Of a DNA stretch of 45,266 nt, positions 598 through 34,961 are shown piece by piece; position 1 is the stretch's first letter, and every line of letters starts with the position of its first letter. The position numbers were made by a program, and so were the translations under genes. The stretch is from a virus: positions 1-45,266 of the IMG/VR virus record IMGVR_UViG_3300022602_002833. One strand, 5' to 3'. The notes beneath the pieces were generated by a model. It was not told where the DNA came from. It did not search any database and was given only the letters and a program-made list of their open reading frames with translations.

Positions 598-2388
598 ATG
601 TCGCTACGTATTAGACGCGGAACAGATGCCCAAAGACAGACCGTAACCTTTGACCAAGGTGAATTGGTTTACACAACCGATACACTTAAATTGTTTGTAG
701 GAGACGGAGTTACAGCAGGCGGAAACAATATTGGTAAAGCACTAGCCGGCACAGGATTAGTGTTTGACACCATTACACAAACCCTACAGGCCACAGCGAC
801 TGGTAGTGGAGGCATCGCATCTGTTAGTGCAGACACCAATCCTGCATTAGGTGGAAATCTAAATATTAGTGGGCACAATATTGTAGGAACTGGTAATATT
901 GCTACTACAGGTACTATTTTTTCTACCGTAGGACTAGGCGGAAATTTAATACTAAATGGCAATAACGTTTCTGGAACAGGCAATATTGCTATCACAGGAA
1001 CTTTAAGTGTTACAGGACTAGGTGCTGATCTAGTTCTTAATAGCCATAATATTACTGGTGTTGGTAATATTAATCAAACAGGAACAATTTCAACTTCAGG
1101 CTTGGCAACATTTGGTTCGATATCAACAACTGGTACATTGAATGTAACAGGAGCAACTGGACTCACAACATTAACATCTACAGGTATAACTAATACAGGA
1201 AATATAACCACCACTGGAACTATTTCGGCTACTACCGGGTTGGGTGCCAATTTATCTCTAAACGGCTATAATATAACAGGATCTACTGGTGCTATTAATA
1301 TTACCGGCAATATTACTAGTGGCAACATTTCGACCGCAGGAACAATTACAGCTACTACGGGTTTAGGCGCTAATTTGCCACTCAATGGATATAACATTAC
1401 AGGATCTACTGGTGCTATTAGTATTTCAGGTGCTATTACAACAACAGGATCTCTAACTGGAGGCACAATTACTGCAACTTCGGGACTAGGTGCAGATCTA
1501 GCACTAAGTGGACATAATATTACGGGCAATGGTGGAATTAATATAACTGGTAACATTAATAATAATGGTACTATTACAACAACAGGCAATTTTACACAAT
1601 CTAGTGGTAGTTTAACTTATACAGGATCTATTCCAAACTATACCTATGTAAATGGATCTATTAATTATCCTTGTCTCAATGTAGGACAAATTAATCTTTT
1701 GCCGGCTAATGCATTTAATGGTCTTGGCGGACTATCAATGAGCACCCAGGGCGACACAAACAACGATCCATTTGCATTATTTGTAATTAACAATGCAAAT
1801 AATGTTCCTACGGCCAACCAAGCATATTTTTCGAGAAGTAGAGGAACATTAGCATCGCCAACTACTGTACAGACAGGCGATGGTATTTTTGCTTTGACAT
1901 GGACAGCTCAAGCATCTAGTAGCTCTGTTTATACTGCTGAAATACTTGTTAATGCCAGCGGTACTATAACATCTAGTGCTGTTCCTGGTCAAATGGCATT
2001 ACAGGTTGCTAATTCTTCGGGAACGATGACATCTGGTCTAACTATAGATGGGCCTACACGTACTACTACATTAAACAATTATTTGGTTGTAAACATAAAC
2101 AACTCAATCACAGCAGCCGGTAGCAATCAGGCAGGAGCAACTCCGTTGTCTAATACTGCAAATATTGTTACCAGCGTGGCTAGTAGCACCGGAGTTTCAT
2201 TACCTACAGGAATATCAGGAATGGTAATCTGGGTTTACAATGCAGGAACGAATCCACTATTGATTTATCCAGTCAATGCTGGATCAGCTAAGATTAATGC
2301 TTTGGCCACTAACTCTGCCTTTAGCTTATCAGTAGGGTCGGGTATTAAGTTCTTGGCAGCAAGTTCTACTCAATGGTATACACTCTAA
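598..2388 (+). CDS. Tail fibre / receptor-binding protein with repetitive shaft
   Basis: A 596-residue structural protein. Residues 1-50 match the N-terminal domain seen in Mtd-type phage tropism determinants: RIRRGTDAQR, then QGELVYTTDT and LFVGDG. This domain normally attaches the fibre to the tail. Residues ~80-330 are built of Gly/Thr/Asn-rich units of the type GLGANLxLNGYNITG alternating with NITTTGTI, as expected for a trimeric beta-helical shaft. Residues ~365-500 form a more complex globular domain, and the end (SLPTGISGMVIWVYNAG to the terminal QWYTL) looks like the small beta domains closing many marine phage fibres. It has a GGAG Shine-Dalgarno and its stop overlaps the leftward island by 4 bp. 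No reverse transcriptase or template repeat typical of a diversity-generating retroelement is present. Confidence 0.85.
   Translation: MSLRIRRGTDAQRQTVTFDQGELVYTTDTLKLFVGDGVTAGGNNIGKALAGTGLVFDTITQTLQATATGSGGIASVSADTNPALGGNLNISGHNIVGTGNIATTGTIFSTVGLGGNLILNGNNVSGTGNIAITGTLSVTGLGADLVLNSHNITGVGNINQTGTISTSGLATFGSISTTGTLNVTGATGLTTLTSTGITNTGNITTTGTISATTGLGANLSLNGYNITGSTGAINITGNITSGNISTAGTITATTGLGANLPLNGYNITGSTGAISISGAITTTGSLTGGTITATSGLGADLALSGHNITGNGGINITGNINNNGTITTTGNFTQSSGSLTYTGSIPNYTYVNGSINYPCLNVGQINLLPANAFNGLGGLSMSTQGDTNNDPFALFVINNANNVPTANQAYFSRSRGTLASPTTVQTGDGIFALTWTAQASSSSVYTAEILVNASGTITSSAVPGQMALQVANSSGTMTSGLTIDGPTRTTTLNNYLVVNINNSITAAGSNQAGATPLSNTANIVTSVASSTGVSLPTGISGMVIWVYNAGTNPLLIYPVNAGSAKINALATNSAFSLSVGSGIKFLAASSTQWYTL
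843..1526 (+). repeat. Six-copy coding repeat in the tail-fibre shaft
   Basis: Copies of a ~45-nt unit encoding (G/A)LG(A/G)(N/D)LxLxGxNITG start near 843, 931, 1015, 1237, 1359 and 1483. Spacing is irregular (~88, 84, 222, 122 and 124 nt). Copies 4 and 5 are most alike, including the GSTGAI that follows, which suggests a recent duplication. Length variation of the shaft by recombination would be expected. Confidence 0.8.
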
Positions 2389-2993
2389 TCGAGTAGATGA
2401 TCAGTTGATTCGTAGAATCTAAATGTAGCAACCACCCTAGGTTCATTGTGTGGATTATAAACTGCATGCGGTACATTAATTCTTAGCACAGCAGGTCTAT
2501 CTAGTTCAAATCTAAAGACTTCTTCCACACTTGATTTAGCGTGACCACCGCAGTTTGTTGCCGCATAATATATATCTGGATCGTTTTTAAGAAGTTTGTA
2601 GAACAAAGTAGCTGATCCAGCACAATTAAGTAATGGAATGTTGATTGCGTTTGTTGTTTCAAAGCCTGTGAACACTGGCATAGCATAATCAAATCTAGCT
2701 TCAGGATCGTCAGGTCTATCAGTATGAATAAACACAGCTCGCATGTCTAACGGATCTTCAATTCCTAAATCGTTATTAAGATTAGTAAAGAAAATCATTT
2801 GACGTGCAGTTAACCCTAACAAACTAAATGCTTTAACTATATCGGGAAGAAATTCCGATATTTCTTTATTGTCGTGACTCCACCATAATGCATCTAAATT
2901 ACTACGACTATTCCTGAAATCCAATAACTGTTGTCTTAAATCTTTCCAGTTAGGGATGTCTAAATACTTTGCATAGTTAATTATTGTTCCCAT
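2385..2993 (-). CDS. Putative 2OG-Fe(II) oxygenase-like / double-stranded beta-helix protein
   Basis: A 202-residue protein and the last gene of the leftward operon 10835-2385. A possible iron-binding facial triad is visible: H90-x-D92 (FIHTD) and H176 (NVPHAVYN), with R186 (EPRVVATFRF) ten residues later where these enzymes bind the 2-oxoglutarate carboxylate. The spacing fits the cupin-like oxygenase fold, but the rest of the sequence is not one I recognise. The start is supported by an AAAGGAG Shine-Dalgarno 8 nt upstream, inside the end of the preceding gene. Substrate unknown. Confidence 0.6.
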   Translation of the reverse strand: MGTIINYAKYLDIPNWKDLRQQLLDFRNSRSNLDALWWSHDNKEISEFLPDIVKAFSLLGLTARQMIFFTNLNNDLGIEDPLDMRAVFIHTDRPDDPEARFDYAMPVFTGFETTNAINIPLLNCAGSATLFYKLLKNDPDIYYAATNCGGHAKSSVEEVFRFELDRPAVLRINVPHAVYNPHNEPRVVATFRFYESTDHLLD

Positions 2994-4102
2994 ACATATT
3001 CTCCTTTTTTTGGAACTGCAAAACTTAAATAAGTTTCTATTTTATTTAAGTCTTCCTTAGTACGTAGGGCACAAAGCTCGTTAGCAAAATGTAATTCTAC
3101 ATTATAATCTAAAGCTAATTGTAATAATTCGCTCCTTCTGTTAGGATCGTCTGGCAAACTATACATGCTACACATGGCTATACCATCTGGTCGTTCTTTT
3201 ATATAATGTTCTAAAGCAGGACACCAATCTAAATGCTCATTTTCAAATTCATAGCTATTGTAACTGATTTTATTTTTAGTACAATATGGTTCGATTATAG
3301 CACGTTGCATAGGCAAGGGAATATTTTTACTGAATACACTATTCCAACCTGCGTATGTAATAAATGGTTTACCTGTATAATCTCTCGTTTCAGATACTTC
3401 GTAATCGCCCGGTAATCTCATAAATCCTCCTGGCAATCTTCGTCCCCATTCTTCACCTTCGATTAAGATACGCATATCCATGCTAACTCTTGTATAATTT
3501 TCTTCATTATTAACATTGCCGTGTAGATGCTCTTGGAAAAACAAATGACTTTGCCCCGGATCCAATGTAACTGGCCATGCATGTTTTAAGCACTCGTTTT
3601 CAAACTTCTCAAGAGACCATTTTTCTTCCATAATCTGCTTTGTAATTTTCCTGCTTATATCTAGATCCATGATCCACATGGTATTTGTTTTCTCTGCTCG
3701 AGTAAAAGGAGTCCAGATAGTTCGACAACCTCTACCATTTCCAACAAAAATACCTTGATGGAATTGTAATCTACGGCCTACACTACTTTGATTAGGAATC
3801 ACAACTCGTAAAGTTCCTTGTCTTTGTATCATGTAACGTTTATTGTCTATTCGTTGAGGAACTATCTCCTGCGCAAATTCATCAAATCGTTTCATGAAAT
3901 CTATGCGACTACATGCGTTTTGCACATGCTGACCTACACGCACAATTTCGGTAGGAGTAAGAAACTTATGCATAGTTTCTAGTTCTTTTATCTGCGGAGC
4001 AACTTCTTGAATTATACTCAGTGCCCACCCTGGCCAATTGTATTTTTCTAAATCATAATCAACCGTTTTATTATCCCAATGTTTTTGTAAAGAGGTTAGC
4101 AT
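2981..4102 (-). CDS. StrG-like 2OG oxygenase domain fused to a LIC12192-type sporadic carbohydrate cluster domain
   Basis: A 373-residue two-domain protein. Residues ~85-215 resemble the sporadic carbohydrate cluster 2OG-Fe(II) oxygenases related to StrG of streptomycin clusters: RVVIPNQSSVGRRLQFHQG, a distal HLHGNVNNEENYTR and the end of the barrel. Residues ~247-365 resemble the LIC12192 family, starting ITYAGWNSVFSKNIPLPMQ and containing IAMCSMYSLP and ELHFANE. These two families are normally separate neighbouring genes in surface-carbohydrate loci. The first motif reads H115-Q-G117, so the usual iron-binding Asp is Gly. The ATG at 4102 has AAGGA 6 nt upstream; a longer reading from 4135 would overlap the upstream gene. 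Function in sugar modification is inferred from family context. Confidence 0.7.
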   Translation of the reverse strand: MLTSLQKHWDNKTVDYDLEKYNWPGWALSIIQEVAPQIKELETMHKFLTPTEIVRVGQHVQNACSRIDFMKRFDEFAQEIVPQRIDNKRYMIQRQGTLRVVIPNQSSVGRRLQFHQGIFVGNGRGCRTIWTPFTRAEKTNTMWIMDLDISRKITKQIMEEKWSLEKFENECLKHAWPVTLDPGQSHLFFQEHLHGNVNNEENYTRVSMDMRILIEGEEWGRRLPGGFMRLPGDYEVSETRDYTGKPFITYAGWNSVFSKNIPLPMQRAIIEPYCTKNKISYNSYEFENEHLDWCPALEHYIKERPDGIAMCSMYSLPDDPNRRSELLQLALDYNVELHFANELCALRTKEDLNKIETYLSFAVPKKGEYVWEQ

Positions 4103-4110
4103 ATTTTTCC

Positions 4111-5214
4111 TTATCCTAGGGCAGTTCCTGCCCAAAACTTTTTCAAATTTTGTGTCGCTATCATAGAAGATTTAGATTCTTTTCCACATTGATGCGCACA
4201 TCTTTCTAATCTATGTTCATTAGACCAAGATTTTTCTACTGCTGTAAAAACACTGTTATTTACAATGTTTTCAATTTTATTATATTTCAGATTAATTGAA
4301 TCAAACCCGCCATTGGATTCTATCAAATTAATTAATTTCTGTCTATCAGGATGTGACTCGGCTTCGTACCCATACAGTCTATCTAATAGCCAACCACAAG
4401 GTAATACATAACCTTCAGCAGATATATAGATCAAGTTAGTGTGTTGAGCCATGCAGTTTATATCAACGGATTTAAGATAGTTATTGTATCCGTTATACTG
4501 TTTTGTAATAAGATTGTAATCATCGTATCCGTTGTTATAATAACGATTGTCGGTAGCAGGTTTTAGCCATCTTATAACTCGTTCTTTCTTGTTCATTACA
4601 GGAGTTTTATCTACTAGCTTATGTTGTTTATCCATAAACCTAGAAGTAATTTTTGTTGCAAATCCGTTAAAACCTAATTGCTGACTTAATAGTTCTGCTT
4701 GTTCCACTTGATGTTGATTATGCTCAAATACAATATAACTCCAAACAGCATTGCCACCGTTCTCTATAAAGGATTTTGCATTGTTGATAATTTTCTGCCA
4801 ATTGGTGCCAATCCTATATAAGTGATTAGTATCTTCCAATCCATCTATTCCAAAATAAACTATATCAGATGGATCCATTACTTGTGCTAAGTCTTTCCAC
4901 CATTTTTCATTTCTCAAGCTACCGTTGGTCCTAATAGCTATTTGAGCCGTCGATGCTGATTTTAACCATTTAACAATTTTGATTAGATCTGTACGTGTGC
5001 AAGGATCGCCATAAGTTCCACATAATCTAATTTCTTTCATGTTAGCTAAAAAATCATCTGTAATCTGTGACTTCATTATGTTTAGATCTAAATCTACTAA
5101 AGGTAAACTAGGCCATGTCTTTCCGCCATAATAATTCCTCGTACATTGAGGGCAGGATGCATTACATCTTGTTGTAAGTTCGATTTCGATTTGTGAAATA
5201 TTTTTATAAAACAT
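4111..5214 (-). CDS. Radical SAM protein with Cys-rich C-terminal (SPASM-like) domain
   Basis: Radical S-adenosylmethionine enzyme of 367 residues from the ATG at 5214 (a TTG at 5232 is the alternative). The [4Fe-4S] motif is C17-x3-C21-x2-C24 (TTRCNASCPQC). A GTYGDP segment takes the place of the usual GGEP motif, followed by RTNGS and VYFGIDGLED. The C-terminal part has spaced cysteines (DINCMAQ, VLPCGW, LERCAHQCGK), typical of SPASM/twitch domains that hold auxiliary Fe-S clusters. It is clearly paralogous to the gene at 18804 (shared RTNG or HTNG, GIDGLEDT, LYRIGT, KHNQHQ or EHNQHQ). It sits between a B12-type radical SAM gene and a StrG-like oxygenase. Substrate unknown; peptides are common substrates of SPASM proteins. 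Confidence 0.85.
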   Translation of the reverse strand: MFYKNISQIEIELTTRCNASCPQCTRNYYGGKTWPSLPLVDLDLNIMKSQITDDFLANMKEIRLCGTYGDPCTRTDLIKIVKWLKSASTAQIAIRTNGSLRNEKWWKDLAQVMDPSDIVYFGIDGLEDTNHLYRIGTNWQKIINNAKSFIENGGNAVWSYIVFEHNQHQVEQAELLSQQLGFNGFATKITSRFMDKQHKLVDKTPVMNKKERVIRWLKPATDNRYYNNGYDDYNLITKQYNGYNNYLKSVDINCMAQHTNLIYISAEGYVLPCGWLLDRLYGYEAESHPDRQKLINLIESNGGFDSINLKYNKIENIVNNSVFTAVEKSWSNEHRLERCAHQCGKESKSSMIATQNLKKFWAGTALG

Positions 5215-7111
5215 GTATTCTACTTTTACCAAAATTTCTTCGTCTGCTATAGTATAAAGATTCTAAAAATTTTGCAAAACTTAAATTTTTATTTTCGGGA
5301 AATTCAAATATTAAAGTAGACGGCAAATTCATATTATTGCCAGCTACGATGAATCCGTAAATGTCGAGGTCAAAATTTATAGTTTTAGGATAAAGACTAA
5401 TATCTTTATAGTCTATTATATAGTAACTCTGTAATTTAATCAAATTTATCTTAGTAAGTTCATCTAAATCGTATCTGTCTATAAATTTTTCTAGTACTGA
5501 CATTACATGTTCTTTTTTTGATTCTGCATGTACATTTATTATCGTAGTGTAAATTAAATTCCACCCATGTACAGGAATATTTGCTATAGGAGGATGATCT
5601 ATCTTGCCTTTCTGTGTCCACTGTATAGTGTATTTCCTAAAATTAGATATTTCTCCAGCCAGCCATTCATCTTTCTGTATGAATTCAAATAAATCGGAAT
5701 AAAAGTCAGCATAATCTATTGAAAGATGTTTGTACACAAATCTACTTAAAAATGTAGTTAGTCCGTTGATATGAAAACAGTTGATGAACCAATTAAACAC
5801 TTGGGCGTCTATCATATGATTAAAAGACATAGTATTAGTTTCAATTACTACATCGACACCTTCTTGTAATTCATTATCGTTATGACTGCCACTCATATAG
5901 TCGTAGACTGTAATAGATCGTATACCGTACAATGATTTTTGGAATTTATTCATTTCTGCATTTTCTAAAAGCTGTGCCTGGAAAATATCTATTCCATTAT
6001 GATTGCCAGCGCGAAATAGTTTCCAAAAATTTTCTTTCCATGTCTCTAATGTTTCGCCTGGCAACCCTAAAATCAGTTCACTATTAACTGGAACTTGATT
6101 AACCTCGGCTAGTTTGAAAATTTCTTCTACGTTAGTATCTGTGAGATTTTTTCTTTTTATATTTTCTAGAACAGAATCGTCCAGACTCTGAAAGCTCAAT
6201 GTAAGTCCGTGATTAAATGCCTTTGTTTTTATAAGTTTAGAAACAATCGCAACTACATCTCTTTTTTGATTCTTTGCCCAACTAACATTGAACGTATAAG
6301 GATACCCATATGAGTTTTGTAATTCTATAAACTTGTCTACTATAAGATTATCTCTTTCAACGAACATACCAAAATTAGCATCAGTAACACTTAGAAATCC
6401 ACATCGATTTTTTGCCATCCATTCTAATTCTGCAAATACCCTGTCTAGATTAAAGTGTTTAATTTTATTATAGGTCAAACTACCCCAATCACAAAATGTA
6501 CAAGCATAAGGACATCCCCTGTTTGTCTCTAAAGTAGCGTTCCATTCTACTGTAGGATTTGCCTGTATAATAGGATCAAAGAAGCCTGTTAAATATGGAC
6601 TAGGCAGATTGTCAAGATCATTAATACGTACACTAGGACCTGTATCAATAGCTGTACCATTTTTATTAATTACTAGGCCAGATATTGTAAAAGGATCGTC
6701 GAGTAATTCTAACAAGGTTTTGAAAGTTTGTTCGCCTTCGCTTTTAACTATGATATCTATATAAGGATGTTGTATAAAGATATTAGGATCAGAGATGGCA
6801 GGCTCTGGTCCTCCAAAGATTATCTTGCATGCTGGATTAATATCTTTAAGTGCCTTTGCTAATGCATAGTTATAATTGCGATTCCATACATAACAGCTTA
6901 TAGCCACAACATCTTGATCTTTTAATTTAACAACTACATCAGGGATAGATTCTCGACGCCATAAAATATGCTCTAGAGAATAATTTCTCTTAATGACATC
7001 AAATTGATTAGCATAAGTCCAAATTGCTCCAACACTATAAGGCAAATAATGTGCATTAAGTTCTTTAGGTCCTTGTTGGAAATTTACTTGTACCAGGCTA
7101 ATTTTTTTCAT
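5204..7111 (-). CDS. B12-binding-type radical SAM protein
   Basis: A 635-residue protein with the layout of cobalamin-dependent radical SAM enzymes. Residues ~1-135 form a Rossmann-like B12-binding-type domain (GGPEPAIS and IDIIVKSEGEQTF are characteristic). The radical SAM core follows with C200-x3-C204-x2-C207 (RGCPYACTFCDWG), then SELILGLPGET near residue 365. Residues ~430-635 are an unassigned helical C-terminal region. The DxHxxG motif that binds B12 in the base-off form is absent (ISCYVWNRNYN is in its place), which is common in the family. Members methylate unreactive carbons or phosphinates, or do other radical chemistry. The ATG at 7111 overlaps the amidinotransferase stop as ATGA, so the two are translationally coupled. 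Confidence 0.85.
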   Translation of the reverse strand: MKKISLVQVNFQQGPKELNAHYLPYSVGAIWTYANQFDVIKRNYSLEHILWRRESIPDVVVKLKDQDVVAISCYVWNRNYNYALAKALKDINPACKIIFGGPEPAISDPNIFIQHPYIDIIVKSEGEQTFKTLLELLDDPFTISGLVINKNGTAIDTGPSVRINDLDNLPSPYLTGFFDPIIQANPTVEWNATLETNRGCPYACTFCDWGSLTYNKIKHFNLDRVFAELEWMAKNRCGFLSVTDANFGMFVERDNLIVDKFIELQNSYGYPYTFNVSWAKNQKRDVVAIVSKLIKTKAFNHGLTLSFQSLDDSVLENIKRKNLTDTNVEEIFKLAEVNQVPVNSELILGLPGETLETWKENFWKLFRAGNHNGIDIFQAQLLENAEMNKFQKSLYGIRSITVYDYMSGSHNDNELQEGVDVVIETNTMSFNHMIDAQVFNWFINCFHINGLTTFLSRFVYKHLSIDYADFYSDLFEFIQKDEWLAGEISNFRKYTIQWTQKGKIDHPPIANIPVHGWNLIYTTIINVHAESKKEHVMSVLEKFIDRYDLDELTKINLIKLQSYYIIDYKDISLYPKTINFDLDIYGFIVAGNNMNLPSTLIFEFPENKNLSFAKFLESLYYSRRRNFGKSRIHVL

Positions 7112-8163
7112 GAATAATCTTCTAATTCGCCTCGTCGACGTAGATCCAATGTAGTACAATGAAATCCACCAGACAATGAATTAGCATGACGCATAGGTAA
7201 TGCTATAACATTAAATCCTTTAGATTCTAAAACACGTATTAAAGGCAACTGATCTTTGCCAACCATAACTGTGTTAGGATCTACGCTTAGTGTATTCATT
7301 CCTATATAAGGACTGCAAGTAGTCATATGTCCAGGGCAATGTGGACTAAGAGGTACCTGTACTACATCATTAAAATAAATCTTATCCCATTTTTGAAATA
7401 TCTTAGGACAATTATCCGGATTAACTCTACTACTGTTTAACAAGACTGTTCCCGCCCTAAGAGGAATAATTGTGCTGTCGAAATGACCAAAGCTATAAAT
7501 GTGTTCTGCCATATGCACACGATATCCTTTGGGCTCTAGTAGATTTTTGAGCCATTGCATGCCCCATTTATTTCCTGTATTACTGATCTGGAATAGTATG
7601 TCTTTGCCTAGTCTTACGCAATTAGGTGCGTCAAACACCGGTTCAAGATCACGTAGGGTAGGCTTTGATAAATCCTCAAATGTATAACTTTCGTCGGATA
7701 ATATAGGTTTAGGAGCACTAATCCAAGCACAGCCATCTTTGATAGCATCTAGCATGATATCATGATACGCTCTAGTTTCAAAATATCTAGCTCGCATACA
7801 ACTAGGTGTTTCTATCATAAGATTGTCTAAAGGTAAAAGCAAATCTCTTGGGCACCAGTTATAGTATCCTGTTGTCTTCCAATCGGGTGTTCCAAATTCT
7901 TTAGAATGATCTACAATCTGTGGTCTATGTACTTTGATTCCTAGTTGCTGAAATGCGTTAGCCATTTCCTCTAGATCTTCATTTGCTTCATCTATCAATG
8001 CTTGTGGATAAGGACCTGCTAAATCCTTTATGTCATCATAGTTGTATTCTGTATAAACCATACTATGGGTGCTTATATCGGGGGTAGCCACTCTTGCGCC
8101 AGTTGCAGTTCCTACTACGACTTCTTCTAATGGATCCCAATGATTATGTGTTGATATTTTCAT
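7108..8163 (-). CDS. Amidinotransferase (glycine/inosamine amidinotransferase family)
   Basis: A 351-residue enzyme of the AGAT/StrB1 family, which moves the amidino group of arginine to an amine to make a guanidino compound and ornithine. The complete triad is visible: D178 in VFDAPN, H227 in GHFDST and C336 in GGFHCTTLD. The D-to-H distance of 49 residues equals that between D254 and H303 in the human enzyme, and length and numbering are close to StrB1. R184, MRHANSLSGG and the C-terminal RRRGELEDYS are also family-like. It lies between a B12-type radical SAM gene and a glycosyltransferase-like gene with 4-bp overlaps on both sides. The amine acceptor is unknown; aminosugar, aminocyclitol, glycine or lysine are all possible. 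Confidence 0.9.
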   Translation of the reverse strand: MKISTHNHWDPLEEVVVGTATGARVATPDISTHSMVYTEYNYDDIKDLAGPYPQALIDEANEDLEEMANAFQQLGIKVHRPQIVDHSKEFGTPDWKTTGYYNWCPRDLLLPLDNLMIETPSCMRARYFETRAYHDIMLDAIKDGCAWISAPKPILSDESYTFEDLSKPTLRDLEPVFDAPNCVRLGKDILFQISNTGNKWGMQWLKNLLEPKGYRVHMAEHIYSFGHFDSTIIPLRAGTVLLNSSRVNPDNCPKIFQKWDKIYFNDVVQVPLSPHCPGHMTTCSPYIGMNTLSVDPNTVMVGKDQLPLIRVLESKGFNVIALPMRHANSLSGGFHCTTLDLRRRGELEDYS

Positions 8164-10835: not shown

Positions 10836-10839
10836 ATTG

Positions 10840-10847
10840 ATATTTAA
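10840..10847 (-). promoter_or_regulatory. Late-type promoter box 4 nt before ATG (leaderless)
   Basis: Read leftward the sequence is TTAAATAT-CAAT-ATG, where ATG is the start at 10835. The box resembles T4 late TATAAATA. With T4 spacing, transcription would begin at or next to the ATG. No Shine-Dalgarno is present. Confidence 0.5.
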
Positions 10848-10860
10848 CCCAACCCCAGTA

Positions 10861-16457: not shown

Positions 16458-16461
16458 AGCG

Positions 16462-18296: not shown

Positions 18297-18297
18297 A

Positions 18298-25060: not shown

Positions 25061-25064
25061 CACT

Positions 25065-27301: not shown

Positions 27302-27304
27302 ATT

Positions 27305-27865
27305 TCACCATAAATTAAATTGATATTTTGGAACTAGGCCGCAATTAGATCCTGCATGCCATCTACGTCTATTGTCCCATTCAAACGCATCACCTTGTTG
27401 TTTACCATAAAATACATGTTCTTCACAAACAAATACATGACCAAACGCCGGTTTACTTATATGGCAATGCCATCTCGGTCTATCTGGCAATGCTAACATT
27501 TTTTCTTCTTCATTATTAACATCCCAGTGCCATGGACTAAATTTGCCCGGATTCAATCTACTAATCCAAGCAGAATCATATTTTTCTATTTTATAAAATT
27601 CAACAAATTTATCTACTACACTTTTATCAAAATGATCTCCTGGAAAAAACATATCCCATTCGACAGTGCCACCTTCTAACGTACTTCTGTATCCTGCTTT
27701 TTTCCAAAGTGCTACAACTTCATCTAACAAGGGGATATCATCTCCTTCTTTGTGCTCAGGGCCAGAAAATGGTCCTGGGTCAGACGTGTAGTCACATCTT
27801 TCTAAATTAGCTATTACATCATCCCAATCTATAATATGACTACAGTTCCCTAAAAATTTAATCAT
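27305..27865 (-). CDS. 2OG-Fe(II) oxygenase, Asp/Asn beta-hydroxylase-like
   Basis: 186 residues. The triad is H113-x-D115 (PGKFSPWHWDV) and H170 (NRRRWHAGSN). It begins MIKFLGNCSHIIDWDDVI, nearly the same opening as the gene at 10176 (ANCSEIINWDHVI), and shares FxGDHFD/WEWD-type segments with the tandem paralogue at 27858. The last barrel strand ends at the C-terminus (YQFNLW), so this is a minimal enzyme. It overlaps the upstream paralogue by 8 bp. Confidence 0.75.
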   Translation of the reverse strand: MIKFLGNCSHIIDWDDVIANLERCDYTSDPGPFSGPEHKEGDDIPLLDEVVALWKKAGYRSTLEGGTVEWDMFFPGDHFDKSVVDKFVEFYKIEKYDSAWISRLNPGKFSPWHWDVNNEEEKMLALPDRPRWHCHISKPAFGHVFVCEEHVFYGKQQGDAFEWDNRRRWHAGSNCGLVPKYQFNLW

Positions 27866-28430
27866 TTTGTGCTCCTAAGAAATGGAACAAATAATAAGGT
27901 TCGTATCCGGCATTGGTTCCGGCATGGAAAGATTTATACGAATCCCATTTATATACATCGTGTTGATTTGCATCAAAATAAAAACAATGGTCCTCTAAGA
28001 TTAAACTCTGCCCATGTCTTGGCTTGTGTACGAAACAGAGGTACCTTACTAGTTTATCTCCATTGTCTATCCATTCTTGTTCTTTATCTTCTATATCCCA
28101 ATGATAAGGAACCATGTTACCCGGCATTACTTCGCTTATAAAAACCCTTCTAGGTTTAGCATTAACTATCTTGCTAAATTTTTCTTGAACAGAGATATCG
28201 TAATGCTCTCCTGGATAATAATCCCACCATTGTATTTTATCAAGGTCATAATTGACATCTGTCCAAGTTTTAACAATTTTCCTGTAGGATTCTAATAACG
28301 GAGTCGATTCGGATTCGGATCTATCAACAACAGTTGTAACTGTGTTATGATCACCTGTCCTTGGTATAATAGAAGAGATTATGCTATCCCAATTGATTAT
28401 AGTTTTAGTTGAAGCAATTAGGTTAGCCAC
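27858..28430 (-). CDS. 2OG-Fe(II) oxygenase, Asp/Asn beta-hydroxylase-like (GTG start)
   Basis: 190 residues from a GTG at 28430. That start is preferred because AAGGAA lies 8 nt upstream and the product then begins MANLIASTKTIINWD, matching the paralogues; the ATG at 28481 would add 17 unrelated residues inside the upstream gene. The triad is H110-x-D112 (NMVPYHWDI) and H169 (YKSFHAGTN). It is a tandem paralogue of 27305 and close to 10176 (PGEHYD or GDHFD and KWDSYKSFHAG). Confidence 0.75.
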   Translation of the reverse strand: MANLIASTKTIINWDSIISSIIPRTGDHNTVTTVVDRSESESTPLLESYRKIVKTWTDVNYDLDKIQWWDYYPGEHYDISVQEKFSKIVNAKPRRVFISEVMPGNMVPYHWDIEDKEQEWIDNGDKLVRYLCFVHKPRHGQSLILEDHCFYFDANQHDVYKWDSYKSFHAGTNAGYEPYYLFHFLGAQND

Positions 28431-29103
28431 TGAAAATTTCCTTGTAAATAAAATCCATAGATTGATCGCCCCATTTAACATGTTCTTGCATCGATCTCTT
28501 ATACATGATTTCTAAATTGTACTTATTATCTTTTATAACACCAGTTTCTTCTAGTCTGAATCTAGCAGATTCGTGTATTATACCATCCATGTATTGTGTT
28601 TCAATGTAGGGACTATCTACCGGAACACACCCATACCAATCTATAGATTTCATCACTCCATCTTTTATGTAATGGCAATGAGGGTACATAGTGAGTTTAT
28701 AAACTCCTTCTTGATATAGATCTGTCATAATATATTTAATTTGATCTTGCCAGCCATTTGGTAGTTCTCGATCAGAAAAAACTATCTCGTTGCAAGTTTC
28801 GGCCCACTCATAAAAGACATGTTTATTTTTTTGATCTATGTCTAGTATCTTAGGAGCATAGGATTTAGTTTGAAACTTCAGTACATTATAGACTTCATTC
28901 TCAAAAAACCAATCAACTACTTCGGGTGTGTATAAAGCCCGTATAGGATCTTCTAATCTTTGATATCTATTGTTAGGATCATAATTAGCACAGAAAATAT
29001 TACCTTCAGGATTAATTAGTGGTTCGTAAGTCTGCTGACTCATGCATCGTTGTCTATCGTCTGCGTCAATCTTAAACCAAGGGTTCCAGTTACTAATATC
29101 CAT
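28423..29103 (-). CDS. Degenerate kinase-like protein
   Basis: 226 residues, paralogous to the gene at 16484. Hinge-like KHVFYEWAETCNEI and catalytic-loop-like YKLTMYPHCHYIKDGVMKSIDWYG correspond to the LHP..GxLKxIDF region of kinase-like phosphotransferases. Here the loop His/Asp are replaced (MYPHCHY), whereas the metal-binding IDW Asp is retained. The N-terminal 60 residues (NPEGNIFCANYDPNNRYQR) have no glycine-rich loop. It shares TAATG with the cold-shock/hydroxylase fusion upstream. Small-molecule phosphorylation or a scaffold role are both possible. Confidence 0.55.
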   Translation of the reverse strand: MDISNWNPWFKIDADDRQRCMSQQTYEPLINPEGNIFCANYDPNNRYQRLEDPIRALYTPEVVDWFFENEVYNVLKFQTKSYAPKILDIDQKNKHVFYEWAETCNEIVFSDRELPNGWQDQIKYIMTDLYQEGVYKLTMYPHCHYIKDGVMKSIDWYGCVPVDSPYIETQYMDGIIHESARFRLEETGVIKDNKYNLEIMYKRSMQEHVKWGDQSMDFIYKEIFSG

Positions 29104-29924
29104 TAAAAATCCCTTTCAGAATAACCTACACGAGGTTGATCACTAAAGAAGCAACTAGCGATCCATTTACACCCACTAGTTATCAATTTACTTTCGTGTA
29201 TAGTTGACCAATTAGTTGCTTCATCATATCCTTGTTCAAAGTACAAAAACGATCCTTTTTTAGGAATTACATTTACATTTAATTTAGGAAAATACGTTTC
29301 TCCTCCCAAAAAATCATCGTTGAGATAAAAGATTCCTGTTCCTACTCTGTCGCCGCCATGCTTATAATAATTAATCTGTTTTGGATCGTACGGGTAATCG
29401 TGGTGAAGATCTAAGTATTGACCTTCCACATAGTTGTAGATGTCACATGCTTCAATGTGGCTAAAAGGAATCTGTGCAGTATTAAAAATAGCAGTGGCTA
29501 ACACATCATAATGATATGGATCTACACCAAGGCTTATGCCTCTGTTCTCTACCATTTCTGTAACTTGCGCAAATGACTCCTGTCTGCTTTGTTTTCCTGA
29601 ACTAGGATTCATACCTAATCTTGTATGTCGTTCTATTACTTCATCGCAAAACTTGTCCGATAATACATTATCAAATACACTAATCCTTGGAAAATCTAAA
29701 AGTCGATTTTCTATTACAGATTTAATAATACTAATATTGATAGCTTTGTATCCTCGATCAGTTTGAGTTCTTAAAAAACTTACTTGTTGTAATTCAAACA
29801 GTACCTGCGGAGTTGCCCGTACGTCCCACTTTTCGGCTAGTACCAATGCATGATCTTTATCGGCTATTATGAAACCATAATCTTTAGCATCATTAAACCA
29901 TTTAACTACTCCCGTCTCAATCAT
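29103..29924 (-). CDS. Cold-shock domain fused to prolyl-4-hydroxylase-like 2OG oxygenase
   Basis: A 273-residue two-domain protein. Residues 1-68 are a cold-shock (OB) domain: GVVKWFNDAKDYGFI at 5-19 is the RNP1 region, and RGYKAINISII at 57-67 matches the closing strand of CspA-type proteins; the RNP2 segment is weak. Residues ~78-260 are a prolyl-4-hydroxylase-type barrel with H174-x-D176 (LDLHHDYPYD), H243 (STIHESK) and K253 (GCKWIASCFF), plus FYLNDDFLGGETYF and KKGSFLYF, all typical of P4H. AAGGAG lies 6 nt before the ATG. The fusion suggests an RNA-binding hydroxylase, acting on a ribonucleoprotein or RNA-bound protein. Confidence 0.85.
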   Translation of the reverse strand: MIETGVVKWFNDAKDYGFIIADKDHALVLAEKWDVRATPQVLFELQQVSFLRTQTDRGYKAINISIIKSVIENRLLDFPRISVFDNVLSDKFCDEVIERHTRLGMNPSSGKQSRQESFAQVTEMVENRGISLGVDPYHYDVLATAIFNTAQIPFSHIEACDIYNYVEGQYLDLHHDYPYDPKQINYYKHGGDRVGTGIFYLNDDFLGGETYFPKLNVNVIPKKGSFLYFEQGYDEATNWSTIHESKLITSGCKWIASCFFSDQPRVGYSERDF

Positions 29925-30850
29925 ATCATCTCCTTACTAGCTCTAATATCGGCTCCGCATGTACACCAATCAAAATTACAAATATAAGATTTGTCTATTG
30001 AACTTTTATCTAACTGGGAATAGTGTCCTAGTGATTCTCTGGCACAGTTTCCCCAATAAACATTGCCATCCGGATGTATCATAAGACTTTCTTTTCCGGC
30101 ATGACATTCCCAATCTCTGAAACTGTTTATTCCTGTCTTCATCAACATGTCTGGATCTAGTATAGATTGTGTTCCATCGTCCCAATAGGCAATCGTGTCA
30201 GTGTCTAACATCCAAGAATGACTTTGTTCTAATTCTTTTCTTCTCTGATCTGTAAACTGCCACTTTGGTTCAGTTTTTAGGAATTCTAATTGTGCAGGCA
30301 TCCATATATGTTGATAATTAGCTCCGGCCCAATTATCAACTGGTCGCAACAAGATCAATTTTATATTATCGACCTTTTTTAATTCTTCATACCATGACAT
30401 GGCAAGATCCCAATGTTTAGGGTCCATCATTAGATAAACAAGTGTTAGAGATTTATTAGTTAGTGCATAGACTCTTTCAATATTAAATTTATGCTGACTA
30501 GGGTGAAAACACATACACCATACATCAGCTAGGTGCGCATGTTCTTGGTACCATCGTGGAGTCCTCACACCATTTGTATCTATTTTTACTTTAGCCCCGT
30601 GTTGTCGTATTACTGTCATTAAATCAGCAATCTGCGGATGTGTAGTTACTTCACCTCCTGTAAGATTGAATAACATAGGCCTATCTAAATTTTTAATAAA
30701 ATTACCAATGCTGTCTAAATCTATTTTTGGATGATTGCCGTTTTGAAATTCGGGAGGACAATATTCGCAAGAGTAAACACAATTTCTAGTCAATTGATAA
30801 GAAATGTGTATGTATTTAGGATCAGATTTTAATTTAATCAGGTTTGGCAT
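29921..30850 (-). CDS. Radical SAM/SPASM-like protein
   Basis: 309 residues from the ATG at 30850 (AGG upstream; a longer start at 30865 is possible). The motif is C24-x3-C28-x2-C31 (TRNCVYSCEYC). FNLTGGEVTTHP carries the GGE motif, KIDTNG follows, and the C-terminal cysteines read WECHAGKESLM, WGNCARESLGHY and NFDWCTCGADI, the same pattern as the gene at 24167. It is coupled to the cold-shock/hydroxylase gene (ATGA) and overlaps the sulfotransferase-like gene. Substrate unknown. Confidence 0.85.
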   Translation of the reverse strand: MPNLIKLKSDPKYIHISYQLTRNCVYSCEYCPPEFQNGNHPKIDLDSIGNFIKNLDRPMLFNLTGGEVTTHPQIADLMTVIRQHGAKVKIDTNGVRTPRWYQEHAHLADVWCMCFHPSQHKFNIERVYALTNKSLTLVYLMMDPKHWDLAMSWYEELKKVDNIKLILLRPVDNWAGANYQHIWMPAQLEFLKTEPKWQFTDQRRKELEQSHSWMLDTDTIAYWDDGTQSILDPDMLMKTGINSFRDWECHAGKESLMIHPDGNVYWGNCARESLGHYSQLDKSSIDKSYICNFDWCTCGADIRASKEMI

Positions 30851-31436
30851 TAAAATACCTATCAACTATTTTCTCTATCTCAACTTTAGCCCAATCTAAA
30901 TTTTTAATATATTTGTATTTGTCTTGGCTATTTTGATTCTCTGAGTTTCTCATCTTGTTGTTGAAATGAGATTCTGGCATAGTATCTGCTGTTATCTTAG
31001 TTGAATTTTTAGGGTACCACTTTAAGTATGCTTGTATTTCTTTTTCTATGTCTTCTAGCTCACGCTCCTCTATGGAAAATTCAAAAGGATCTTTTTCATT
31101 TCGTAAATTAAAACCAAATCTATTAGCGATACAAACAGATAAAAAACAATTTACCCAATCGGGCCTTTCTACAACAAATATATCATAGACATCATTCGCT
31201 AAAACACTTTGATACCAATCTTGTACTCTTACACTATGTTCTATATGATTTCCATGTATTTTTAATACAGCTTTAGGATCATCTATATCTCTAAATGCTT
31301 GTTTCCAACTGTCTTCACTATTGATATCTAAGTTATCTAGAGAAAATACTTCGTCTTTAATTATAGCTCTTCTGGCACAAAAGAACACAACTGTTGCCCT
31401 TGTACGCGGCATTGTATAAATCATTATAGGTTTCAT
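30834..31436 (-). CDS. Sulfotransferase-like protein
   Basis: 200 residues. TMPRTRAT at 8-15 resembles the 5'-phosphosulfate-binding loop of PAPS-dependent sulfotransferases, and VVERPDWVNCFLS with R91 and S100 resembles the 3'-phosphate-binding segment. It is shorter than typical cytosolic enzymes. It lies two genes from an APS-kinase-domain protein that could supply PAPS, which strengthens the reading. The sulfate acceptor is unknown. It is coupled by ATGA to the 119-residue gene. Confidence 0.65.
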   Translation of the reverse strand: MKPIMIYTMPRTRATVVFFCARRAIIKDEVFSLDNLDINSEDSWKQAFRDIDDPKAVLKIHGNHIEHSVRVQDWYQSVLANDVYDIFVVERPDWVNCFLSVCIANRFGFNLRNEKDPFEFSIEERELEDIEKEIQAYLKWYPKNSTKITADTMPESHFNNKMRNSENQNSQDKYKYIKNLDWAKVEIEKIVDRYFNAKPD

Positions 31437-31792
31437 AATTCAGTTATAGTCGGACCATCTTTAATCCAACCCCTTTGTAAAAATTCATTTTCTATTTCCG
31501 ACCAATATGCATTATTGAAAAAAATATCTATAAAATTTTCTATATTGCTGTACCCGTCAAAAGCAATATTAATGACATTAGATACTAAATTTTGCTGATT
31601 AATAGGTATTGGATGATTGTAGATGTCATGGTCAATGCAACACTGTCTCTCCCAGATTGCACAATCATAGCCAAAGTCTGGATGTAACTTCTGATTTAGA
31701 CTATTCTCCATAGATTGCAATAAATCACCTATATGTTCCGCTATCCCGTCGCTCTTAACAAATTTTATAAGGCACCTATGAGTCTGTATCAT
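31433..31792 (-). CDS. Small protein of unknown function
   Basis: 119 residues, mostly helical, with four cysteines (CLIKF, YDCAIW, QCCIDH) and an acidic tail (NEFLQRGWIKDGPTITEL). No recognised motif. It is wedged between the APS-kinase fusion and the sulfotransferase-like gene with 4-bp overlaps on both sides, so it is surely translated with them and may be a partner protein. Confidence 0.6.
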   Translation of the reverse strand: MIQTHRCLIKFVKSDGIAEHIGDLLQSMENSLNQKLHPDFGYDCAIWERQCCIDHDIYNHPIPINQQNLVSNVINIAFDGYSNIENFIDIFFNNAYWSEIENEFLQRGWIKDGPTITEL

Positions 31793-32607
31793 TTTAATCC
31801 TAACTCCTTGCGTATTTTTGTAGCACTAATGTCAGTTACCGATTGATCAAAAGTTTCTTCCCCGGCTGTGTATCCTACGCCTCTTCCCCAACCAATATGA
31901 ACTATATTAGGAACAACTTGTATTTCATATTGTCCTTGGTACAATGGATCCAAATCACGTTTAATAAAACTCTTAACTTGTTCTATGGCAAATGGATTTG
32001 ATCCTTGCCAACCTTGTACATCACGTACTTGAATAATTACTTGACCTGTCTTGGCTAGCAAACGTTCAAATAAAGTCCTATGCCCATTATGCCAAGGTTG
32101 CCAACGACCTAGCATCTGTACAGTTTCTTTCTTCCAATCAAATACAGGACGTCTGCGATTATCAATAATGTGCTCGGCAATAAAGTCAGCCCATTTTTCT
32201 GCATCTTGTTCTGTAATACGGAAGTCATAATACTCTGGCTCTTGAAACATAGCATTAGTATCTGCGTATCTACCTTCACGAATAGTGTCTACCCAGATAG
32301 TCCAATCTGCTTTGAAGTTATTTCGCATCTCCACTATAGGAGCAACAAAGTCGCAGATAACATATTCTGTTCCTGCTTCTATACTAAATTGAAACATACG
32401 CAGACTTTGACGAATACGCCCTTCTTTACTAAAGTCCCAATCGTTATACTTACGGCGTACATCGTCTGCATTGAACCAAGTTACTTTAGGGAATATTGGT
32501 TCAAGTTCTGCGTTAGTTACTCTTTCTTCTAAACGATTTTTTAATGCTTCTGCTAGAATAGTTTTACCTGCACCAGGTAGCCCCATAATTAAAATTCGTT
32601 GTGTCAT
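31789..32607 (-). CDS. APS-kinase-like P-loop kinase fused to HxGH nucleotidyltransferase
   Basis: A 272-residue bifunctional protein from the ATG at 32607 (GGAAAAAAATA upstream, TAATG with the previous stop). Residues 1-150 are a P-loop kinase with GLPGAGKT at 9-16, WFNADDVRRKYNDWDF and VICDFVAP, in the order of adenylylsulfate kinases. Residues 165-270 are a nucleotidyltransferase with GRWQPWHNGH (HxGH at 173-176) and the closing ISATKIR at 260-266, most like NMN adenylyl- or cytidylyltransferases. Animal PAPS synthase has the same order, but its sulfurylase domain is much larger. Roles in PAPS supply or in NAD metabolism are both possible. Confidence 0.8.
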   Translation of the reverse strand: MTQRILIMGLPGAGKTILAEALKNRLEERVTNAELEPIFPKVTWFNADDVRRKYNDWDFSKEGRIRQSLRMFQFSIEAGTEYVICDFVAPIVEMRNNFKADWTIWVDTIREGRYADTNAMFQEPEYYDFRITEQDAEKWADFIAEHIIDNRRRPVFDWKKETVQMLGRWQPWHNGHRTLFERLLAKTGQVIIQVRDVQGWQGSNPFAIEQVKSFIKRDLDPLYQGQYEIQVVPNIVHIGWGRGVGYTAGEETFDQSVTDISATKIRKELGLK

Positions 32608-33209
32608 TATTTTTTTCCTATTATCATATATCGTGTGTACAACGGTAATGCAAACTCGCCTGCCCAAATGATATCTACACAGCATTGTTTTTTGAATTCA
32701 TCTAAATTATTTGCTGTTCTTATATGTTCGGGTATGTTATAGTTATTGCTTTGCAAAACTAATAAACTGTTATCGGGTGTATGGCTTAACCAACTTTCAT
32801 ATTGTTTTTGTGTTAGATGTTCACAACTTGTGTTAATAATAATATCTGCACTCATATGCATAGGTTGACTAATATCCACAACACTGGCACGGAATCTGCC
32901 TGCCATTTCCTCTAGCTTATTCATATTTTCTGCGATAGGTTTACATACTGGATCGATATCATAACTTGTAATATAGGAAATAGGTATAGTACTTTGGAAC
33001 AACATGCTAGCCAAGACCCCTACCCATCCAGCACAGATTTCAACACTATAAGGATCTCTCTTCACTGAACAATGTAGCTGTAATACTTCTATTAACCATT
33101 CTTTGCTTTTAATTTGTCCAGACCAAAAGGCATCCATAGTCCTCAACGGCTCGGGACTTTGGCGGATTGCTTGCATCCAATGATGCAAATGATCTGTATC
33201 TATCATCAT
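32607..33209 (-). CDS. Class I SAM-dependent methyltransferase-like protein
   Basis: 200 residues. VEICAGWVGVLASM is the motif I AdoMet loop, SYDIDPVCKPIAENMN is the acidic strand and helix of motif II, and ADIIINTSCEHL the motif IV strand. The fold is that of small phage methyltransferases; the target base, protein or small molecule cannot be read from the sequence. The double ATG start overlaps the preceding stop (TTATGATG), and the gene ends in TAATG with the kinase fusion. Confidence 0.75.
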   Translation of the reverse strand: MMIDTDHLHHWMQAIRQSPEPLRTMDAFWSGQIKSKEWLIEVLQLHCSVKRDPYSVEICAGWVGVLASMLFQSTIPISYITSYDIDPVCKPIAENMNKLEEMAGRFRASVVDISQPMHMSADIIINTSCEHLTQKQYESWLSHTPDNSLLVLQSNNYNIPEHIRTANNLDEFKKQCCVDIIWAGEFALPLYTRYMIIGKK

Positions 33210-34006
33210 AAGTTTAATTTCTTTGCTATCAGTACTGCCGCATTATAGGCAGTTTTTATCCCCGAGTGCATCATGTCTCTAGAGAAGTCGGCAGGTTGAT
33301 CCTTGAGAAATTTATCTATAAGATTATATCCTGCCGTGTGTACATGATCCACATTAAGAACCGATGCTGTATTTTCATGCCAGGACGCCTCACAATAAGC
33401 ACATCTATCTTCCCAAAGTTGCCTTGTTATCTTTGATATAAACACAGCATTTAATTCGGCATGATATTTATTTTTGTTCCAAATATCCATAAGATCGTTA
33501 GGTTCAAGATTCCACGCACCTAAATGTTCTACATAAGTTTTTTCATATCTTGTTATTCTGTCTAATTCAGGCCATGCCATAATTACTCCCCTTGGAGTCG
33601 GATACGCATCTCTAAGTATAGAGGAATTATGAAAATTAAAAAACATCGATGATCCGCCTACTCCCATATTAACAACAGGTAATCCTAGGATATTTTCTAT
33701 CTGACTGGATACAGTATCTTTATCATCTAAACCTACGCCTAATACATGGGAACAACCAAAGATAACCACCGAGTTAGCCCAATCGATGTTGTTAAACTCT
33801 TGAGTTCTATAACCTTCGGAATTAAAAGTGTAGGTCACTGAATGTGTTCTATAGTGCCAATCCGGTGGTTGTTTTTTTAAGTTTTCCTTATAACGGTTTT
33901 CTGTATCAGTACCTGACCAATATTTTGTACTATCATTGTCGCCCGGCAAAAACTTATTTGCATTAATTTTCGATCGTATAGTATATGAGAACAATTTATT
34001 CAGCAT
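33206..34006 (-). CDS. SGNH/GDSL-type hydrolase-like protein
   Basis: 266 residues. VVIFGCSHVLG holds the nucleophile S86 (GDSL block read as GCSH), VVNMGVGGSS resembles the Gly/Asn oxyanion block, and DFSRDMMHSG gives D244 and H247 near the C-terminus. NSEGYR near residue 62 is also common in this group of esterases and acyltransferases. Such enzymes add or remove O-acyl groups on glycans. No signal peptide. It overlaps the radical SAM gene upstream by 11 bp. Confidence 0.7.
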   Translation of the reverse strand: MLNKLFSYTIRSKINANKFLPGDNDSTKYWSGTDTENRYKENLKKQPPDWHYRTHSVTYTFNSEGYRTQEFNNIDWANSVVIFGCSHVLGVGLDDKDTVSSQIENILGLPVVNMGVGGSSMFFNFHNSSILRDAYPTPRGVIMAWPELDRITRYEKTYVEHLGAWNLEPNDLMDIWNKNKYHAELNAVFISKITRQLWEDRCAYCEASWHENTASVLNVDHVHTAGYNLIDKFLKDQPADFSRDMMHSGIKTAYNAAVLIAKKLNL

Positions 34007-34961
34007 TTTTTATCTTTGGTATTTTGCTATCAGCGCTACTGACACATCTATCAGTTACGCAAAGTCTAGGGGCGGAAAACAAAGTAAATTTTTCTATCGT
34101 TCCCAAACTTTCTTCCTTGCAACTGTATGCTCGTTTTACTTCGTTACCTCTTATTATAACACTCTGATAGCCACTATTGCAAGTCCATCCGGCAAACTGA
34201 TTGAAACCTAATGCATTAAATCTTTCTGCTTGATCGATATAGTAATCTTGCTCGCCGTCGGTAAGTCTTATTTGAAACCCTTCCTGTTGCTCAAAATCAT
34301 TCTGCATGATATCAATCATCTCAGGCGTATAACCATCTACTATGGCTGTGGCAGTATCGTTACTCTGCGGTTTGAGTGTTACGTTGATACCACGCTCTCG
34401 CAGGCGATTACAACGTTCTAATGTTTCATAAAACAGTGCCGGCACCATAACTTGGTTAACTGTTACGTGTACACGTTCGTACATTAGTTGTAAACACTTG
34501 TCTCCAAACTCTTGCTCTTTGGCAAACTCTGCGTGAAAACTGGCCGTAATACTTCTACGCTGTAGACAGTCAGAAACATCGCACCAATTCTTCCACCATT
34601 TTGATCCTGGCGACAAATTGGTTGTCATATGGATACTTTGGTAAGAACTTTTGGTTTCATCCAAGTGTTTGATTAGTTTGGGAAGATCTTTATAGGCTGT
34701 TGGCTCGCCTCCACTAAAACTCCAGTGGAATTGGGTAAATCCGTTCAAACCGGCTTGACGTTTTATCTCATCTACTGTAGACTTATATACTTCTAAAGTT
34801 TGGTAATCCAAACTATCACTTCTAGCATAGGGCCAACAGTATGAGCATTTATAGTTACAAAATCTGCCCAATATCCAACTAATGTTAAATAATGGATGAT
34901 CCAACATAGTCTGTTGTCCAAATTTGATTATTTTCGAAAACGGTATGTTAGAGAATTCCAT
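33996..34961 (-). CDS. Radical SAM protein, first gene of the long leftward operon
   Basis: 321 residues. The motif is C35-x3-C39-x2-C42 (GRFCNYKCSYC), followed by HWSFSGGEPTAY (GGEP), HMTTNL and the C-terminal cysteines WTCNSGYQSV, AYSCKEESLG and LCVTDRCVSS, a divergent version of the pattern at 24167 and 29921. Its ATG at 34961 is head-to-head with the RNA gene; leftward the box TGTAAATA lies 6 nt upstream and there is no Shine-Dalgarno. It heads a run of 13 leftward genes. Confidence 0.85.
   Translation of the reverse strand: MEFSNIPFSKIIKFGQQTMLDHPLFNISWILGRFCNYKCSYCWPYARSDSLDYQTLEVYKSTVDEIKRQAGLNGFTQFHWSFSGGEPTAYKDLPKLIKHLDETKSSYQSIHMTTNLSPGSKWWKNWCDVSDCLQRRSITASFHAEFAKEQEFGDKCLQLMYERVHVTVNQVMVPALFYETLERCNRLRERGINVTLKPQSNDTATAIVDGYTPEMIDIMQNDFEQQEGFQIRLTDGEQDYYIDQAERFNALGFNQFAGWTCNSGYQSVIIRGNEVKRAYSCKEESLGTIEKFTLFSAPRLCVTDRCVSSADSKIPKIKNAE

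Follow-up and report, generated by a model that had tools for sequence, protein, structure and literature searches.

The 45,266-base virus record IMGVR_UViG_3300022602_002833 from IMG/VR, analysed here over its whole length (the window), contains an island of 39 closely packed genes (positions 2385-34961, strand blocks alternating) that combines radical S-adenosylmethionine (rSAM) proteins, Fe(II)/2-oxoglutarate (2OG) oxygenases and candidate sugar enzymes. The island is characterized by conserved enzymes with invariant active-site residues in the tested families, by virus-borne synteny and by the proximity of tail fibre genes. We give about even chances to the reading that it represents a modular, phage-owned tailoring pathway, which makes an unusual, sometimes guanidinylated sugar and transfers it to the host surface or the virion. 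Genes are named according to their start coordinates in the window, and no sequence extends beyond it.

The island belongs to large phages and has a conserved core

An earlier note on this DNA had described about 40 consecutive enzyme-rich genes as part of a phage genome, and both points held up: we count 39, and the genes on either side are related to genes of a 363,943-base jumbo phage record (G002). Therefore, the window probably represents part of the genome of a large G002-like phage. The G+C content of the island (34.9%) is lower than that of its flanks (40.2% and 40.3%). A part of the island used as DNA query against the deposited phages gave no match. The earlier note had proposed to look for syntenic islands in related phage genomes, and a search of IMG/VR with the amidinotransferase as query indeed retrieved them: syntenic, rearranged islands are present in G002, in two records of 54.6 kb (G003) and 46.8 kb (G004) and, partially, in one more. 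Approximately 20 families are common to the window, G002, G003, and G004 at roughly 40-80% identity. Ten rSAM matches each were found in G002 and G003, nine in G004, and eight in the window; those of G002 are almost all inside the island.

A profile of the 15642 family detected 236 relatives in IMG/VR, and we analyzed the neighbourhood of such relatives in 80 loci (71 after removal of duplicate loci). The 16484 family was present in 73 of these 80 loci, followed by 22076 (71), 19864 (66), 21385 (64), and 28423 (58). Some of the genes are fixed neighbours: among the 71 loci, 19864 and 21385 form a divergent pair in 49 and 15642 and 16484 in 43, while 21385 and 22076 adjoin in 39. Because of these recurrent families and fixed pairs, the island is not an artefact of assembly, nor are its genes piled up at random. 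A chimeric contig was ruled out, since both flanks are related to one jumbo phage record, and since we found the core in four mapped records and in another 80 loci.

Growth of the island by duplication of modules, as suggested earlier, is not supported as a recent process. Paralogues inside the window are 22-33% identical, whereas their counterparts in other phages mostly share 50-80% with them. The duplicates are therefore old, and recent duplication was dismissed. The islands seem to have been put together from cassettes and reshuffled.

The T4-type capsid protein Gp23 (PF07068) was detected in five of the nine large carrier records searched, with E-values down to 4e-99, and not in the window fragment. 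Gp23 of G002 is ~70% identical to that of Vibrio phage 2.275.O, Sinorhizobium phage Phosso, and Pseudomonas phage PA5oct, all of them large phages. The carriers are large T4-related phages, which are known mostly from environmental DNA. Among 50,697 deposited phage records, no match to 15642, 16484, 22076, or 33996 was found at the sensitivity of single-sequence tblastn. Their absence has to be read at this sensitivity, since a profile of the 22076 family does reach distant relatives in the deposited Vibrio phage K566. In this 255-kb phage, four adjacent genes (locus L019, 14845-21614) match the twitch-type rSAM families of 22076 and 14236, and three of them are annotated as rSAM. Scans with patterns of the 15642 and 21385 families, which reach only moderately close relatives, revealed no relative in 84,980 species genomes of bacteria and archaea; a bacterial origin is unsupported by these scans, which at this reach leave absence unproven.

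Enzymes encoded in the island

All eight rSAM proteins that had been claimed (4111, 5204, 14236, 18804, 22076, 24167, 29921, and 33996) score above the PF04055 gathering score of 29.5 bits, with 18804 at 31.7 bits. Protein 5204 reaches 254.7 bits against the model of KedN5-family B12 rSAM C-methyltransferases (NF033712), which has a curated cut-off of 700.

Approximately ten proteins from several families resemble Fe(II)/2OG oxygenases. Of the ten H-x-D...H (or H-x-G...H) oxygenases proposed before, about nine are supported, but 2385 is doubtful and could not be confirmed. Proteins 10825 and 19864 (PF05118) as well as 29103 (PF13640) pass the Pfam cut-offs. The H-x-D...H motif is invariant in all aligned sequences of 10825 (31/31), 13736 (52/52), 15642 (53/53), and 19864 (48/48). 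Proteins 10176, 13736, 27305, and 27858 constitute one family related to PF05118 (best E 7e-4; a match in two of the eight members scanned). For the marker 15642, a PDB profile search yielded nothing useful, and a weak GT10 match appeared in 5 of 16 family members (best E 0.007). Protein 2981 remains below the curated cut-offs of both models that it resembles, SpoChoClust_1 (TIGR04323; 47.3 vs. 55 bits) and SpoChoClust_2 (TIGR04324; 73.5 vs. 150 bits). Homologues of 29103 have equal length in G002 and G004, and the G003 version, which is 75 residues shorter, may lack the cold-shock part.

The two amidinotransferase-family proteins named before were recovered, 25065 by its resemblance to 7108 (Table 1) and 7108 by its match to inosamine-phosphate amidinotransferase (PDB 1bwd, E 1.7e-94), which far exceeds those to glycine amidinotransferase (~1e-60) and SxtG (6e-60). 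The catalytic Cys-His-Asp residues of 7108 (H227, D229, C336) are invariant in 20 of 20 sequences. By its sequence, 7108 is a predicted amidinotransferase that most resembles StrB1, an enzyme of streptomycin biosynthesis. Candidate glycosyltransferases are 8160, for which a PDB profile search gave nothing useful, and 12508, both compared as predicted structures (Table 1).

Taken together, profile searches bore out most of the folds named in the earlier note, including two pyridoxal phosphate (PLP)-like proteins, three short-chain dehydrogenases/reductases, and the QueC-like PP-loop protein; with the PP-loop family (21385), a PDB profile search gave nothing useful. For the kinase-like pair 16484/28423 the fold stands, but the 16484 family lacks the normal catalytic residues: SLHPSSYF and NYF replace HRD and DFG, are nearly invariant, and leave every aligned sequence without the catalytic aspartates. 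These replacement residues suggest a binding function or another kind of conserved chemistry. Protein 30834, named sulfotransferase-like before, matched no family. Protein 26673 weakly matches the C-terminus of arginyl-tRNA-protein transferase and is present only in the window among the records compared. A relative of the kinase half of 31789 occurs in G004.

Table 1. Features of the window and the matches or conserved residues on which their naming is based (HMM, hidden Markov model; pLDDT, predicted local distance difference test; TM, template modelling score)
Feature	Coordinates	Strand	Evidence
Tail fibre-like, Mtd_N (major tropism determinant) N-terminus	598..2388	+	PF18454 E 1.4e-9; convergent with island
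Possible oxygenase-like protein	2385..2993	-	45% and 28% identity in G002 and G004; no Pfam family; metal triad doubtful
Fusion of SpoChoClust_2-like 2OG-Fe(II) oxygenase and SpoChoClust_1-like domain	2981..4135	-	TIGR04324 E 1.9e-20; TIGR04323 E 1.8e-12; 80-83% identity to G002/G004
rSAM	4111..5232	-	PF04055 2.5e-9
B12-binding rSAM, KedN5-like C-methyltransferase relative	5204..7159	-	PF04055 1.2e-10; PF02310 2e-10; NF033712 E 1.5e-75 (below cut-off)
StrB1-like inosamine-phosphate/glycine amidinotransferase	7108..8163	-	Residues 4-346 of PDB 1bwd aligned, E 1.7e-94
GT-B fold glycosyltransferase (probable)	8160..9287	-	AlphaFold2 pLDDT 90.3; Foldseek top matches GT-B enzymes, best E 7e-3, prob 0.98
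Small PLP fold-type I aminotransferase-like	9280..10176	-	PF00155 E 0.003; lysine K189 conserved in alignment
2OG oxygenase, 13736 family	10176..10835	-	Triad retained in alignment
Asp/Asn beta-hydroxylase-type oxygenase	10825..11625	+	PF05118 4.8e-8; triad 31/31
NAD-dependent sugar epimerase/dehydratase	11622..12545	+	PF01370 2.4e-36; nucleotide-sugar-type
GT-A-like glycosyltransferase domain, N-terminal half	12508..13752	+	Foldseek top matches nearly all GT-A enzymes, best E 5.5e-5, TM 0.27
2OG oxygenase	13736..14239	-	Triad H94-x-D96...H145 in 52/52; weak PF05118
rSAM with N-terminal twitch domain	14236..15642	-	NF033640 391.9 bits (NCBIfam cut-off 170)
Marker oxygenase-like protein	15642..16457	-	No Pfam family; H178-x-D180...H237...R250 in 53/53
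Kinase-fold-like, without catalytic Asp	16484..17179	+	Profile match to TTK kinase E 0.004
Acyltransferase-like protein	17091..17723	+	GNAT by eye only, no Pfam match; 63-74% identity to G003/G004
Short-chain dehydrogenase	17697..18344	-	Weak PF00106; conserved pair with 18298
Short dehydrogenase-like partner of 17697	18298..18765	-	40-48% identity in three other records
rSAM	18804..19889	+	PF04055 2.1e-7
Asp/Asn beta-hydroxylase-type oxygenase	19864..20640	-	PF05118 3.8e-6; triad 48/48
Second PLP-like protein	20544..21398	+	28% identity to 9280
PP-loop ATPase, QueC-like TRSCEG...CGxCFWCKER cysteines	21385..22134	+	SGGADS and cysteines invariant in 14 sequences
rSAM with N-terminal twitch domain	22076..23383	+	NF033640 332.1 bits (NCBIfam cut-off 170)
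rSAM	24167..25060	+	PF04055 2.1e-12
Second amidinotransferase-like protein	25065..26237	+	23% identity to 7108; conserved GG-x-HC-x-T
Aminoacyl-transferase-like (ATE_C), weak	26673..27125	-	PF04377 E 0.003, below cut-off
2OG oxygenase, 13736 family	27305..27865	-	Triad retained
2OG oxygenase, 13736 family	27858..28481	-	Triad retained
Second kinase-fold-like protein	28423..29103	-	51-58% identity in three other records
Cold-shock domain fused to prolyl-hydroxylase-type 2OG oxygenase	29103..29924	-	PF00313 7e-9; PF13640 4e-8
rSAM	29921..30865	-	PF04055 1e-8
P-loop kinase and nucleotidyltransferase-like fusion	31789..32685	-	PF01583 1.5e-5; adenylyltransferase half weak
Methyltransferase-like protein	32607..33209	-	Annotated methyltransferase homologue in phage Mosig, HMM E 1.8e-22
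rSAM, strongly conserved	33996..34961	-	PF04055 5.6e-13; 64-73% identity in three records

Association with tail fibre genes

The island meets the Mtd_N fibre gene of the window tail-to-tail, and its location at a tail-fibre locus, already proposed in the earlier note, is also found in other carriers. The Mtd_N fibre domain occurs in 19 of 25 large carrier records and lies within 16.5 kb of the marker gene (15642) in 16 of these 19. Random placement gave a mean of 7 within this distance and never reached 16 in 20,000 trials. This statistic is only indicative, since the cut-off of 16.5 kb was set after the distances had been seen and some of the records are near-duplicates. The proximity to fibres is compatible with decoration of the virion and with alteration of the host surface alike. 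A 5-kb stretch free of open reading frames beside the island of G002 was considered as a broken fibre gene and rejected: it is an array of 28 tRNA genes in ~6 kb adjoining the island (locus L007, 10111-15855), and the window fragment contains none.

Proposed function and alternative explanations

We infer a glycoside as the product, as well as the order of steps and the target. The dehydrogenase/epimerase and PLP enzymes would prepare an amino- or keto-sugar, and the amidinotransferase would move a guanidino group from arginine to the amine in those variants that possess it. The rSAM and Fe(II)/2OG enzymes could oxidise, epimerise, dehydrate, or methylate unactivated carbons, further groups might be added by the QueC-like, acyltransferase-like, and methyltransferase-like enzymes, and the GT-B (8160) and GT-A-like (12508) proteins would attach the sugar to an acceptor. 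Likely targets would be the host surface polysaccharide, thereby excluding competing phages, or the tail fibre or capsid of the phage itself. A sugar product is suggested by the StrB1-like 7108, the epimerase 11622, the relatives of sporadic carbohydrate proteins in 2981, and the two candidate glycosyltransferases. The occurrence of the 7108 family among rSAM and glycosyltransferase genes in the unrelated deposited phages S-SCSM2R and CP220 points in the same direction.

Several observations weigh against a sugar pathway. The weakest point is the lack of a specific sugar signature in those genes that are most constant (15642, 16484, 22076, 19864, and 21385). An amidinotransferase or glycosyltransferase-like gene lies within 10 kb of the marker in only 54 of the 80 loci, the neighbourhoods being incomplete. 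The structural matches of the glycosyltransferase candidates are modest, with no E-value below 0.001 for 8160 and a low-confidence model for 12508 (pLDDT 59.8). No export or polymerase genes were seen in the island, and G002 has no Mtd_N tail fibre near its island. Moreover, PF05118-type oxygenases often act on peptides. A more specific version, in which a virus-only pathway of ~20 genes puts a new guanidino sugar, tailored by rSAM proteins and oxygenases, on fibres or the host surface, with variant modules as phage-specific decoration, is a tentative proposal that we hold to be rather doubtful.

Alternatively, the enzymes could modify the tail fibre or another virion protein by 2OG-dependent hydroxylation, by rSAM-dependent cross-linking, epimerisation, or methylation, and by glycosylation of the hydroxyls through the glycosyltransferase-like proteins. 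A tail fibre is located near the island in most carriers, PF05118- and prolyl-hydroxylase-type oxygenases typically hydroxylate proteins or peptides, and rSAM/SPASM-type proteins are frequently peptide-modifying. The best structural matches of 12508, via its GT-A part, include the lysyl hydroxylase/glucosyltransferase LH3 and collagen galactosyltransferase. We nevertheless regard protein modification, although a serious competitor of the sugar reading, as unlikely: the inosamine-type amidinotransferase, the sugar epimerase, and the sporadic carbohydrate relatives suit sugars better, and the island gaps contain no convincing small open reading frame conserved across loci that could encode a precursor peptide. 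A ribosomally synthesized and post-translationally modified peptide with a small precursor was rejected on these grounds; the commonest family of small open reading frames lies, in the cases mapped, outside the island and mostly beyond the tail fibre. No peptide-recognition domain turned up, although no search was aimed at one.

It is improbable that there is no single pathway and that a hotspot beside the fibre gathers unrelated metabolic cassettes with turnover. Gene order and content are variable, several genes occur only once, and the G+C content is unlike that of the flanks, as expected for such a hotspot, but ~20 families recur together, including the fixed neighbour pairs described above, and the catalytic residues are invariant.

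The mixture of enzymes also resembles antibiotic clusters, with a StrB1-like and a KedN5-like B12-rSAM protein, so that infected cells could release a diffusible aminoglycoside- or guanidino-alkaloid-like product against competitors or grazers. We consider this quite improbable, as we recognized neither a scaffold synthase nor a transporter or a gene for self-resistance, lysis allows little time for secretion, and the association with tail fibres would be left unexplained. Hypermodification of phage DNA or RNA, for which one may cite that phages employ rSAM, PLP, and 2OG enzymes on nucleobases, that 21385 is QueC-like, and that 29103 carries a cold-shock nucleic-acid-binding domain, is very improbable given oxygenases of the PF05118/PF13640 types and not of recognized TET/JBP types, no recognized deazaguanine partner genes in the island, and a location near tail fibres and not near replication genes.

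Since 25-33 kb are devoted to a conserved and chemically demanding pathway, its product must benefit the phage greatly. The absence of the core markers from deposited phage genomes, compared to at least 236 environmental contig stretches, makes the system invisible to work on isolates. If the surface sugar proves true, the islands would represent a large store of carbohydrate chemistry carried by viruses and would offer direct access to the means by which large phages control recognition, superinfection, or receptor escape; protein modification would instead amount to virion modification on a new scale. The conserved core (15642, 16484, 19864, 21385, and 22076) is a short, testable gene list.

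Comparison with known systems

According to the earlier note, no phage system of such content had been described, but there are three precedents (PMC2853527, PMC7029224, PMC5332604). Pelagimyophages possess a hypervariable host-recognition cluster with rSAM cassettes, for which alteration of the host surface was proposed (PMC7029224). Like our island, this cluster of pelagimyophages and cyanomyophages is hypervariable, occupies the tail-fibre locus in marine phages of the T4 superfamily (compare Gp23 in five of nine large related records), and contains rSAM cassettes, glycosyltransferases, Asp/Asn hydroxylases, and aminotransferases. The cultured Pelagibacter phage Mosig (EXVC030M) carries ~30 annotated island genes next to its fibres, among which the families of the PLP protein 9280, of 32607, and of 11622 as well as 10825-type and 18804/29921-type proteins are represented. 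However, the host-recognition clusters, which are placed between VrlC and the neck gene gp14, are non-syntenic between phages, whereas the core blocks of the window type keep their order and adjacency within a recurrent core of ~20 genes. The window-type islands are also found in other phages, the largest carriers being much bigger, have more rSAM and oxygenase genes, and include the markers 15642, 16484, and 22076, which were undetected in deposited phages.

The Campylobacter phages CP220 and CPt10 carry a swappable cluster with five rSAM genes and an amidinotransferase (PMC2853527). The amidinotransferase belongs to the same family as ours (HMM E 6e-69), several of the rSAM proteins are related to 18804 and 24167, and two sugar-transferase-like genes lie alongside in this block. 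In contrast to the window, the module comprises 10-12 genes without annotated 2OG oxygenases, the 15642/16484/21385 core was undetected, and its rSAM proteins fit families other than 22076 better. An operon of Synechococcus phage S-SCSM2R likewise contains an amidinotransferase next to a 2OG oxygenase (E 7e-67 and 2e-26 to the window families), an rSAM gene, an AHBA-synthase-type aminotransferase, and several glycosyltransferases, but it is short and has only one rSAM gene and no marker families.

A marine T4-like environmental genome with 12 rSAM genes, noted in 2017 and discussed as Fe-S metabolism (PMC5332604), resembles the window in that many rSAM genes occur in a single T4-like marine virus. 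Protein 2981 fuses relatives of both sporadic carbohydrate cluster families (TIGR04323/TIGR04324); unlike these, it is a fusion, scores below both cut-offs, and is encoded by a phage. The kind of system is therefore already known; new are the conserved core, its environmental spread, its apparent absence from isolates, and the density of radical and oxygenase enzymes.

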